Assembly (NCBI RefSeq): GCF_900105675.1 | Contig: NZ_LT629786.1 | Span: 124,001-188,000, forward strand | Origin: Pseudomonas synxantha | GTDB taxonomy: Bacteria; Pseudomonadota; Gammaproteobacteria; Pseudomonadales; Pseudomonadaceae | DNA: 64,000 nt | Direction: 5' to 3' | Shown here: piece by piece, positions 18,580-20,669 of the stretch | Layout: every line of letters begins with the position of its first letter | How positions within the stretch are numbered: position 1 is the first letter of the stretch | Made by a program: the position numbers and the translations under genes | The notes under the pieces: generated by a model | What the model was told of the DNA's origin: nothing | The model's input: the letters and a program-made list of their open reading frames with translations, nothing else | Database searches by the model: none

Positions 18580-18593
18580 GTTTTGTAGTGTTT

Positions 18594-18830
18594 TCAGGTA
18601 CGCGGCATGCAGTCGATGGTGCGGTTTACCACGGTCTTGGCCATCTCCAGCAAATGCCACGCGGCATGGATTCTGGCGCGGTCGTGTGGTTGCAGGTGAT
18701 CGCAACAGTCCCACACCGTGGCTGAGGCGCTGTGGATCAAGTGGGAGATATAGAGTTGGGCGTCTTCGAAGCTGAGTTCTTCGTTGACGACAAGGCAGTC
18801 CATGGGTGGATCGGGAAGGGCTTTGGTCAT
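18594..18830 (-). CDS. DUF6124/DUF3077-type small protein, copy 1
   Basis: Predicted 78-residue acidic, helical protein of a Pseudomonas-restricted small-protein family (DUF6124-like by eye). No signal peptide or membrane segment; it contains Cys pairs in VWDCCDHL and a His-rich centre. ATG 18830 has AGGAG seven bases upstream, and this ribosome-binding site lies inside the leader's A' segment. Copy 2 downstream encodes the same protein with one change (Glu18 here, Asn18 there). The function is unknown. Confidence 0.75.
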   Translation of the reverse strand: MTKALPDPPMDCLVVNEELSFEDAQLYISHLIHSASATVWDCCDHLQPHDRARIHAAWHLLEMAKTVVNRTIDCMPRT

Positions 18831-19030
18831 CGTGTAACTCCTATTGAGCAAGGGAGCGACCACCAACGCTGCTAAACGTAAGGTGGCAGCTGTACGCGGG
18901 TTAGCAGACCGGTCAATAGGAAAACCAGCGCACCCGAAGATGCCCCGCGCACAGCCACCATAAACGCGGATGTGGACCGTGTGCCTATTGAGTTCGGGCT
19001 GCTAAACCCGATCACTGAACTCCAGTGACG
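18831..19030 (-). ncRNA. three-segment leader of DUF6124 copy 1, candidate RNA switch
   Basis: On the minus-strand transcript the order is as follows. A 5' hairpin (TCACTG/CAGTGA, 19012-19028). Segment A (pairing parts at 18999-19005 and 18984-18991). A small hairpin GCAUC-UUCG-GGUGC. Segment B (18913-18920 and 18901-18907). Segment A' (18869-18875 and 18840-18847). Then the AGGAG site and ATG. B is complementary to both A and A', so the two pairings exclude each other. A'-B pairing would cover the start of the ribosome-binding site; A-B pairing would free it. The second gene copy has different sequences that keep all the pairings. Structure is seen; the switch function is inferred. Confidence 0.7.
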
Positions 19031-19036
19031 GACCGA

Positions 19037-19065
19037 AGACTAGCCATCGATTCCAACAGGCACAA
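19037..19065 (-). promoter_or_regulatory. sigma-70-like promoter of DUF6124 copy 1
   Basis: Minus strand TTGTGC (19060-19065), 17-bp spacer, TAGTCT (19037-19042). The predicted start near 19030 places the TCACTG/CAGTGA hairpin at the 5' end of the transcript. The same elements recur in copy 2. Confidence 0.5.
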
Positions 19066-19165
19066 GGCGGCGGGGATTGTCTCGGAAACGTCCTGCAATT
19101 TAAAGAGACACAGCTTGCTGGCCTTTTACAAACCATGACCAAATGCCAGCAACACCATCCGTCCA

Positions 19166-19257
19166 AATGTGGGAGGGGGCTTGCTCCCGATGAGGGTATG
19201 TCAGTCATACATCTGTGACTGACCCACCGCCATCGGGGGCAAGCCCCCTCCCACATT
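19166..19257. repeat. REP element (inverted pair)
   Basis: Third REP pair of the window (AATGTGGGAGGGGGCTTGCT and complement), immediately 3' of DUF6124 copy 2 and part of the duplicated unit. Confidence 0.85.
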
Positions 19258-19272
19258 GGTTTTGTAGTGTTT

Positions 19273-19509
19273 TCAGGTACGTGGCATGCAGTCGATAGTG
19301 CGGTTTACCACGGTCTTGGCCATTTCCAACAAGTGCCACGCGGCATGGATTCGGGCACGGTCGTGGGGTTGCAGGTGATCGCAACAGTCCCACACGGTGG
19401 CTGAGGCGCTGTGGATCAAGTGGGAGATATAGAGTTGGGCGTCTTCGAAGCTGAGATTTTCGTTAACGACGAGGCAGTCCATGGGTGGATCGGGAAGGGC
19501 TTTGGTCAT
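19273..19509 (-). CDS. DUF6124/DUF3077-type small protein, copy 2
   Basis: Predicted 78-residue protein, identical to copy 1 except Asn18 for Glu18. ATG 19509 is preceded by AGGAG at seven bases, as in copy 1; the longer frame to 19662 runs through the leader and is not real. Near-identical proteins from differently paired leaders suggest the leader, not the protein, has been free to diversify. Function unknown. Confidence 0.75.
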   Translation of the reverse strand: MTKALPDPPMDCLVVNENLSFEDAQLYISHLIHSASATVWDCCDHLQPHDRARIHAAWHLLEMAKTVVNRTIDCMPRT

Positions 19510-19715
19510 GGTGTAACTCCTGATTAAGGCAGAAGCCGGCCCAGTCGCGACTAAACGAAGGGTGGCGGCTGTACGCAGGTTAGTCGACCGGCTAATCAGG
19601 AAAATCCGGCGCACCCGAGGGTGCCCTGCGCACAGCCACCATAAAACCTCATGGAGGACCATGCGCCTGATTAGAGTCCGGGCGACTAAACCCGATCACT
19701 GAAAAGGCAGTGACG
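19510..19715 (-). ncRNA. three-segment leader of DUF6124 copy 2, candidate RNA switch
   Basis: Same architecture as the copy 1 leader. 5' hairpin TCACTG/CAGTGA at 19696-19713 with a different loop. Segment A at 19683-19689 and 19666-19673. Hairpin GCACC-CUCG-GGUGC. Segment B at 19593-19600 and 19580-19586. Segment A' at 19548-19554 and 19519-19526, ending in the AGGAG site. Relative to copy 1 the outer pairing block changes from CCTATTGA to CCTGATTA in both A and A', and B changes from TCAATAGG to TAATCAGG. The inner block changes from CTGCTAA to CGACTAA, with TTAGCAG to TTAGTCG in B. Every change keeps both alternative pairings. Confidence 0.7.
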
Positions 19716-19721
19716 GACCGA

Positions 19722-19750
19722 AGACTAGCCATCGATTCCAACAGGCACAA
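19722..19750 (-). promoter_or_regulatory. sigma-70-like promoter of DUF6124 copy 2
   Basis: Minus strand TTGTGC (19745-19750), 17-bp spacer, TAGTCT (19722-19727), identical to the element before copy 1. Confidence 0.5.
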
Positions 19751-19859
19751 GGCGGCGGGGATTGTCTCGGAAACGTCCTGCAATTTAAAGAGACACAGCT
19801 TGCTGGCCCTTTACAAACCATGACCAAATGCCAGCAACACCACCCCTCCCACATTTGGA

Positions 19860-20669
19860 TCAGCGGCCGAGCATCTTTACCCAGCGCGATGGCGGCATGC
19901 CGTAGGTGCTGCGAAATTGACGGGTCATGTGGCTTTGGTCGGTGAAGCCGGCGGTCATCGCCGCATCCACCAACGATTGGCCCTGGGCCAACAGCTGACG
20001 CACCAGGTCCAGCCGGCGCATGGTCAGGTAGCGGTAGGGGCTGGTGCCGAACAATAAACGAAAATCCCGCGATAACGCCCAGCGGTCGCGGCCGGCGTGG
20101 TCGGCCATTTCATCCAGGGTAATGCTGCGGCCCAGGGCGCTGTGGATAAATTCACGGGCGCGCTCGGCGGCGATGTAGTCGAAGGATTTGCGGCTGACGA
20201 TGGCGCCGGACGCCATGCTCAGCGCCTGTGCCAGGTCGTACATGGCGTCCTGTTCCTGCATCGGGTCAATCGAGCACTCCAGGTTCTGCAGCAACACTTC
20301 GCTGGCGCGGTGCAGCCGTGGGTCGGTGGACAAGCCGCCGGGAATAAACGGCAAGGGCTTGCCGCCAAGGATCTGCTGGATCAGCGCCGGCTCCACATAA
20401 ATCATCCGGTACTTGAAGCCTTCATCGCTGCCTGCGCGGCCGTCATGGAGTTCATCCGGGTGAATCACCATGGTGGTACCAGGCAGGCTGTGGGTCATGC
20501 CGCCGCGGTAATGAAAACTCTGCACGCCGAACAAGGTGCGCCCGATGGCGTAGGTGTCATGGCGATGGGGGTCGAACGCGAAGCCGGCAAAGTACGCCTC
20601 GATACGGTCCAGGCCACTGGCGTGCGGGGCGCGGTGCAGCCAATCGAGGGTGTGGGTGGGGTTGCCCAT
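19860..20669 (-). CDS. AraC-family transcriptional regulator
   Basis: Predicted 269-residue regulator. N-terminal cupin-like AraC-binding half (HRHDTYAIGRTLFGVQSFHYRGG, PDELHDGRAG) and a C-terminal double helix-turn-helix (about residues 165-265), ending GFTDQSHMTRQFRSTYGMPPSRW. It is divergent from the LysE-type exporter gene, a frequent arrangement in Pseudomonas in which the regulator controls the exporter. The effector is unknown. A start at 20669 fits the family N-terminus. Confidence 0.88.
   Translation of the reverse strand: MGNPTHTLDWLHRAPHASGLDRIEAYFAGFAFDPHRHDTYAIGRTLFGVQSFHYRGGMTHSLPGTTMVIHPDELHDGRAGSDEGFKYRMIYVEPALIQQILGGKPLPFIPGGLSTDPRLHRASEVLLQNLECSIDPMQEQDAMYDLAQALSMASGAIVSRKSFDYIAAERAREFIHSALGRSITLDEMADHAGRDRWALSRDFRLLFGTSPYRYLTMRRLDLVRQLLAQGQSLVDAAMTAGFTDQSHMTRQFRSTYGMPPSRWVKMLGR

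Follow-up and report, generated by a model that had tools for sequence, protein, structure and literature searches.

The 64,000-nucleotide stretch of Pseudomonas synxantha DNA that we analysed (hereafter the window) carries two closely related units on the minus strand, one running from about 19047 to 18594 (copy 1) and the other from about 19728 to 19273 (copy 2). Read along that strand, each unit consists of a c4-a1b1 element, a b1 segment, a C4 RNA, an a2 segment, a b2 segment on the ribosome-binding site and a gene for a 78-amino-acid DUF6124 protein, the presumed C4 target. The copy 1 gene (18594 to 18830) matches PF19619 with 26 bits and an E value of 8.5e-6, just below the cut-off of 27 bits, and the copy 2 gene (19273 to 19509) scores 27 bits, equal to the cut-off (E 4.1e-6). 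The two proteins are one residue apart (E/N at position 18), as the initial annotation of this DNA had stated. That annotation gave positions 19510 to 19715 as the span of both duplicated leaders; the interval does cover the copy 2 leader, but copy 1 lies outside it, and the genes are on the minus strand. Genes of the MCP and AraC types neighbour the units.

Segment names follow the phage P1 record, by which the longer recognition segments are b1, b' and b2 and the shorter ones a1, a' and a2. Within the minus-strand copy 1 leader, the c4-a1b1 element (18991 to 19043) forms a hairpin followed by a second hairpin whose loop holds the upstream target a1 (18999 to 19005). The second upstream target, b1 (18984 to 18991), is followed by the C4 antisense RNA (18879 to 18965), which contains the antisense segments b' (18913 to 18920) and a' (18901 to 18907). 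Immediately 3' of C4 lies the target a2 (18869 to 18875), complementary to a', and further on the target b2 (18840 to 18847), complementary to b', overlaps the Shine-Dalgarno sequence AATAGGAG at the position that b2 occupies in P1. As plus-strand letters, b1 and b2 both read CCTATTGA and b' reads the complement TCAATAGG, while a1 and a2 both read CTGCTAA and a' reads TTAGCAG. The minus-strand copy 2 leader is built in the same order, with the c4-a1b1 element at 19675 to 19728, a1 at 19683 to 19689, b1 at 19666 to 19673, C4 at 19558 to 19646, b' at 19593 to 19600, a' at 19580 to 19586, a2 at 19548 to 19554 and b2 at 19519 to 19526, overlapping the Shine-Dalgarno sequence AATCAGGAG. Here the plus-strand letters are CCTGATTA for b1 and b2 with TAATCAGG for b', and CGACTAA for a1 and a2 with TTAGTCG for a'. 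The copies thus differ at three positions of one segment and two of the other, and every difference is matched three ways, which bears out the earlier claim that five positions had changed jointly in three places. A small hairpin said to covary as well changes on one side only (U.G to C-G), in a manner compatible with pairing rather than compensatory.

Other repeats surround the units. The 142 nucleotides upstream of each (19023 to 19164 and 19708 to 19849) are 98% identical between copies and may include the promoter as well as the 5' border of the leader cassette described below; a simple sigma-70 scan of positions 18590 to 19900 found no promoter. A 243-nucleotide repeat that includes the coding sequence is 94% identical between copies, below the value for the upstream stretch. 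Between the two units, at 19166 to 19257, lies a REP-like 42-nucleotide inverted repeat with 88% complementarity, and letters resembling it were seen by eye near two further C4 loci of the genome (L016 and L023).

Judged by covariance models and element order, each leader is a P1-type C4 antisense RNA. Both pass the Rfam model for C4, RF01695, with 81.5 bits (copy 1) and 80.2 bits (copy 2) against a cut-off of 45. The c4-a1b1 model, RF03163, gives 41.5 bits (E 1e-8) and 42.1 bits (E 6.9e-9), which is below its gathering threshold of 46.7; P1 itself reaches 51 bits, and both models match that phage. The P1 record annotates a1, b1, C4, a2, b2 and icd in matching order, with a1 and b1 as putative targets. 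Both in the window copies and family-wide, a1 and b1 complement the a' and b' segments of the neighbouring C4. The likeness to the immI operon of phages P1 and P7 extends from the order a1-b1, C4, a2-b2, small gene to the fold of C4, the ATGG at its 5' end and the placement of b2 on the ribosome-binding site. Unlike that operon, the C4 of the window precedes single DUF6124 genes, without icd and ant downstream, and DUF6124 has no profile similarity to P1 Icd. The two pairings, called alternative in the initial annotation, do not look like rival folds of one leader, since the three-stem structure of C4 is present in the minimum-energy folds of both leaders. In copy 2, a' and b' both lie in loops of that fold; the same holds in copy 1 for a' and for b' except its last two of eight bases, which lengthen stem P3.

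The window genome holds 28 C4 matches above the cut-off and 22 DUF6124 matches, of which 19 exceed the cut-off and the window's two are among three just below it. A DUF6124 or DUF3077 match lies on the same strand within 500 bp downstream of 22 of the 28 C4, where chance would give 0.03. Of the 22 DUF6124 matches, 19 sit behind a C4. The other six C4 comprise three with small open frames, one with a truncated DUF6124-like gene, and two (L012 and L016) with no target gene seen by eye. The three small frames (L010, L014 and L020; 89 to 97 amino acids) have no significant Pfam match and, being similar in size, are possibly further relatives of DUF6124 or DUF3077. The strongly shortened DUF6124-like gene follows its C4 at positions 1150 to 1620 of locus L023, which is close to an intact relative, L015. 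At another locus (L081), no target gene was seen by eye and b' matches its own b1 only in part, as would be expected under relaxed selection.

We sampled 59 genomes of the genus. A C4 match at E 0.001 is present in 54 of them, in 53 over the cut-off, and the number of matches per genome ranges from 0 to 54. Unlike in P1 and P7, C4 here sits in bacterial genomes. The counts of C4 and DUF6124 per genome correlate (Spearman 0.88, relatedness ignored), and those for C4 are possibly lower bounds, with 150, 135 or 61 candidates scored per genome. Both families occur in 47 genomes, including one (G043) whose sole C4 match is below the cut-off; seven have C4 alone, five have neither and none has DUF6124 alone. 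The DUF6124 protein, whose function we infer, is predicted to form a two-helix hairpin (mean pLDDT 83.8), and a fold search of this model against the PDB returned no match at E 0.001 or better. PA2703/Tsi2 chains were among the best matches (E about 1) and were set aside as weak hairpin matches. The C4-DUF6124 unit is rare in the phage and plasmid collections, since the copy 2 leader has only partial matches in 2 of 50,697 phage records and 5 of 72,556 plasmid records, and a DUF6124 query (P0016) matches one phage record, EU982300, which also has a C4, and no plasmid. In a Pseudomonas aeruginosa phage record (L257) and a plasmid (L259), stretches resembling the copy 2 leader lie beside genes that carry no DUF6124 annotation.

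We assembled a main set of 145 loci from 10 genomes, consisting of the 28 of the window genome and 117 among the best-scoring matches listed out of a larger number; 15 loci missed by the first parsing pattern were read with hand-set patterns and retained. The 5' end of C4 carries ATGG or a close variant in 137 of the 145 loci, and the stricter pattern TATGG[CT]GG in 69; RNase P may process C4 at this GG 5' end. Pairing was scored as best ungapped complementarity and compared with within-genome permutations subjected to the same best-match search. In the window genome, with its 28 loci, a' and b' on average match the regions on either side of their own C4 better than in any of 100,000 permutations, with the b' segments of two loci (L010 and L025) read too short. 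Across the 145 loci, b' scores 8.02 against its own downstream region versus 4.87 against those of other loci of the genome, and 6.94 versus 4.64 for the upstream regions, while a' scores 6.82 versus 4.50 and 6.85 versus 4.59. All four means lie above every one of 20,000 within-genome permutations, and the three-way complementarity is therefore beyond chance. Counting b' matches of at least 6, 106 of the 145 loci have one on each side, 25 have just the downstream one, 9 just the upstream one and 5 have none; among the 131 loci with such a downstream match, a start codon follows shortly after in 119.

A second set of 60 loci among the best-scoring matches listed, again out of a larger number, less two that were unparsed and dropped, gives the same picture for b' (own downstream 8.46 versus 5.11 and own upstream 7.04 versus 4.79 for others of the set), with 16 of the 58 codes also present in the first set. 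The cleanest evidence for maintained pairing comes from a group in which 25 different b' segments go with a single a' and a C4 backbone of 95% mean identity. Of these b' segments, 20 find a match of at least 6 downstream and 24 upstream; some resemble one another closely, which means fewer independent types. Since across the family the antisense segments match their upstream target as well as the one at the ribosome-binding site, both pairings appear to be maintained. To this extent the view of the initial annotation that both are selected stands, while its account of the two copies as five coordinated substitutions after a duplication is not supported.

The recognition codes within a genome appear largely private. 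Among the sampled loci, the downstream b' match of a locus's own leader is unbeaten within the genome in 115 of 145 cases and strictly the best in 105, and another leader of the genome does better in the remaining 30; for the upstream match the own leader is unbeaten in 100 and strictly best in 80. When sharing is compared on b' without its first two bases, one of 1,222 within-genome pairs has a common b', with different a', and none has both segments in common, whereas b' is common to 11 of 9,218 between-genome pairs and a' is identical too in 10 of these. The sole within-genome pair with a common b' (L127 and L134 of G010) may, by its differing a' segments, reveal whether a' alone confers specificity. 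For the window copies, b' is predicted to form duplexes with its own downstream region at energies of -11.8 and -12.7, and with that of the other copy at -5.8 and -5.2; the gap is smaller for the whole antisense stretch (own -23.2 and -29.9, crossed -20.1 and -20.0). For phages P1 and P7, four deviating bases are reported to limit cross-reaction (PMC5320573, citing Citron and Schuster 1990). In the cell, C4 cross-talk may be lacking. Among 134 loci, codes differ in 9 of 9 within-genome pairs and 31 of 44 between-genome pairs whose genes are at least 0.9 alike. We rejected this contrast as proof of private codes (p 0.09); its pairs are non-independent and the tandems come from a similarity search.

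The upstream pairing might have a role of its own in many relatives. A terminator-like GC hairpin with a T run lies between b1 and C4 in 47 of 116 loci, compared with 13.3 expected from dinucleotide shuffles. In 36 of the 116 (3.3 expected), the first arm of the terminator can instead pair with a segment that starts at the 3' end of b1. The 116 loci are the 115 of the main set with a recognisable b1 plus P1, which is among the 36 and so, like many relatives, has a terminator and a competing hairpin behind b1. In 49 further loci with a recognisable b1, evaluated in the same way, 29 have the terminator (8.2 expected) and 26 the competing hairpin (2.4 expected). When b1 is blocked in predicted folds, the mean probability of the terminator stem rises from 0.49 to 0.92 in the 36 loci (29 up, 2 down) and from 0.44 to 0.90 in the 26 loci of the second set (21 up, 3 down), while a control block of up to equal length in the terminator loop yields 0.42 in the latter. 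These loci were picked for their competing stem, so the folds illustrate the mechanism rather than test it independently. Evidence against an attenuator also exists, in that shifting the start of the competing segment by -24 bases, onto the a1 hairpin, still gives competing stems in 24 of 47 loci and in 18 of 29 loci of the second set; shifts of -16, -8, +8 and +16 give 0 to 10. Neither leader of the window has such a terminator by these criteria, and b1 there must thus act otherwise or be a remnant. Taken together, the data suggest C4-controlled transcription attenuation in relatives and in P1. Plasmids such as pT181 and pIP501 use antisense-RNA transcription attenuation, in which a terminator and a competing hairpin are the alternatives. 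Unlike in those plasmids, the antisense RNA here would be encoded downstream of the attenuator, in the same transcript.

The histories of leaders and genes are discordant. The copy 1 leader (type 1) and the copy 2 leader (type 2) are also found, with identical b' and a' sequences, in other species, and two genomes (G128 and G174) have the types of the tandem in reverse order. The type 2 leader of the window is 0.97 to 0.99 identical to those of G128, G174 and G269, and its type 1 leader 0.89 to 0.94 identical to those of G128, G174 and G244, whereas the window's own two leaders are 0.79 alike. The coding sequences behave in the opposite way, with 0.95 identity between the window copies and 0.87 to 0.89 between the window's type 2 gene and the type 2 genes of G128, G174 and G269. 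Trees were built from 24 rows retained out of 27 loci searched, after removal of identical rows and of rows without a parsed gene of this kind of 70 to 95 amino acids. On the coding-sequence tree, leader type changes nine times, no fewer than under shuffled labels (mean 8.2), and an AU test on that tree rejects monophyly for every type (2e-6, 3e-8 and 6e-4). On the leader tree, built with the recognition segments masked, type changes twice; types 1 and 2 stand apart with support of 100/100 and 97/99, and type 3 does not form a clade. Type 1 leaders are not uniform, as those of the window and G128 agree at 0.89 overall and at 0.40 to 0.72 between b1 and C4.

At one site, the leader alone differs in type. 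In G244 (type 1) and G105 (type 3), both flanks and the gene are 0.88 to 1.0 alike over the compared stretch, and the leaders only 0.60 to 0.82 alike from about -87 to +116 relative to the C4 start, as measured by sliding identity in 40-base windows. The same limits place the approximate extent of the exchangeable cassette on the minus strand at 18844 to 19047 in copy 1 and at 19525 to 19728 in copy 2, with edges uncertain by about 40 bp either way. A type 2 leader is found in G269 with the upstream flank common to G244 and G105 (with a dip at about -327) and likewise with their gene. Beyond about +450 relative to the C4 start the similarity downstream is lost, and this locus may therefore be another site or lie beside a rearrangement. 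Between the window, G128 and G269, type 2 leaders agree at 0.95 to 1.0 and the genes behind them at 0.80 to 0.97, and a tandem pair in G054 encodes identical proteins behind leaders of types 3 and 1. A wider set of 163 loci for which a gene was parsed yields 106 pairs whose genes are at least 0.9 alike, and in 49 of these the leaders are at most 0.82 alike; nine pairs show the converse, with an identity of at least 0.9 between leaders and at most 0.75 between genes, although many discordant pairs of this set stem from one window-like group. Because type follows the leader rather than the gene, and because G244 and G105 differ in the leader alone, the leader appears to move as one cassette; the matched differences between the window copies, five in number, are then best counted as one event. 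We therefore rejected these differences as independent covariation, given the discordant trees and the G244/G105 site, and the contrast between the copies is best read as exchange of one block of about 205 bp.

Changes in one segment that its partners do not match, which had been expected to speak against selected pairing if common, were sought among 40 loci of the three related types, picked as having at most one mismatch from the b' of some type. By script, 28 of the 40 show no mismatch in the four duplexes; three loci (L082, L084 and L086) proved on inspection to have two b1 mismatches each, missed through the script's choice of window, which leaves 25. Such changes thus exist, mostly at duplex ends or beside them, and the commonest change in b' still pairs as G.U. 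Type 3 has one mismatch plus a terminal wobble or mismatch in b1 and b2 alike. Another locus (L187 of G006) combines a type-1-like b', CCTATTGG, with the a' of type 2 (CGACTAA), every partner matching; it is possibly a recombinant of two cassettes.

These observations allow the alternative histories of the two copies to be weighed. If the leaders had diverged step by step after a tandem duplication, five substitutions would each have been repaired in two partners under selection. The exact three-way match in both copies, the one-sided changes in the family that keep G.U pairs or fall at duplex ends, and the mixed state of L187 are all consistent with such a course. However, both types occur in other species, twice in reversed tandem order, and the masked leader tree reveals that the leader is type-specific outside the recognition segments too; no b' intermediate between CCTATTGA and CCTGATTA was found among the 40 loci, a weak argument because that set was confined to b' segments within one mismatch of a type. 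We consider this course most unlikely. It is also very unlikely that template-switch repair of quasi-palindromes copied the changes among segments with no selection on pairing, a proviso attached to the initial annotation. The inverted repeats of a1-b1, C4 and a2-b2, some 50 to 80 nucleotides apart, would be a plausible substrate, and the process could be the origin of new codes. For the window copies it is superfluous, because the entire block of about 205 bp differs, and the many matches that hold one-sided G.U pairs and the persistence of the types across several species also argue against it.

The roles of RNA and gene could also be assigned differently. A cis-acting leader, in which the middle segment picks the upstream or the downstream partner within one RNA in the manner of an attenuator or RNA switch, would be permitted by a single transcript and would accord with the terminator between b1 and C4 in many relatives. 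The retention of the C4 three-stem fold in the minimum-energy folds of both window leaders, together with the Rfam match and the likeness to P1, points instead to a separate, processed RNA that acts on targets, and makes such a switch quite unlikely. Finally, the coding sequences might have been exchanged instead, with gene conversion homogenizing DUF6124 genes within genomes while old leaders stayed in place. Tandem genes of a genome are indeed 0.95 to 0.98 alike, compared with 0.87 to 0.96 for same-type, window-like genes across species, and part of the history could be such homogenization between fixed leaders. As a full account it is improbable, given that the G244 and G105 loci agree on both flanks and in the gene and differ in leader type alone.

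We therefore favour a C4 module that combines cassette exchange with maintained pairings, an explanation that we regard as a whole as quite probable. C4 would fold alone into three stems and display a' and b' mainly in loops, from which they could pair with a2 and b2 and also with the upstream a1-b1. Because b2 covers the ribosome-binding site, C4 would block translation of the DUF6124 gene, by analogy with repression in P1. The stretch of about 205 bp from a1-b1 to b2 would be inherited and swapped as one cassette between genes and species, and since the cassette carries the complementary segments together, copies 1 and 2 would come to look triply covaried. New specificities would also have arisen while the C4 backbone stayed nearly constant and b1 and b2 continued to match b'; both pairings are thus probably kept by selection. 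In relatives that have the terminator and the competing hairpin, binding of C4 to b1 could end transcription early.

Several elements of this system have been described. C4 was predicted in Proteobacteria and phages by Weinberg et al. 2010, who recognised a1-b1 as a motif (PMC2864571), and, unlike the present analysis, the available part of that motif listing comes without target genes, cassette exchange or a terminator. The available text on the Group 1 C4-like sRNAs of Acinetobacter baumannii (PMC5320573) counts 21 C4 homologues in one genome, apparently cut from longer transcripts, names a' as the variable part and leaves the targets open. Both systems have many C4 homologues within a genome; unlike in that account, b' varies more here (121 different b' versus 34 a' among 130 parsed loci) and a presumed target gene lies next to most C4. 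A search of titles and abstract openings in the open-licence literature found no paper that deals with C4-DUF6124 units, the exchange of leaders or an a1-b1 attenuator.

A broader reading, to which we would give somewhat less than an even chance, joins these parts and sees in C4 a chromosomal switch family of Pseudomonas with private codes, cassette rewiring and an a1-b1 attenuator that is also present in P1. Each genome would then hold up to dozens of largely private codes, diversified against cross-talk, most of them guarding one small protein of the DUF6124/DUF3077 type, and C4 would act twice, on its own transcription via b1 and on translation via b2. For P1, the predicted attenuator would supply a testable role for a1-b1, which is annotated merely as a putative target. 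For comparative work, covariation between paralogues may reflect block exchange, and pairs of this kind should not enter a tally of independent compensatory changes. A phage immunity RNA present in tens of copies across many Pseudomonas genomes would amount to a natural set of parallel antisense codes in one cell, and the specificity of antisense RNAs, their cross-talk and the change of their codes would be directly testable in such genomes.
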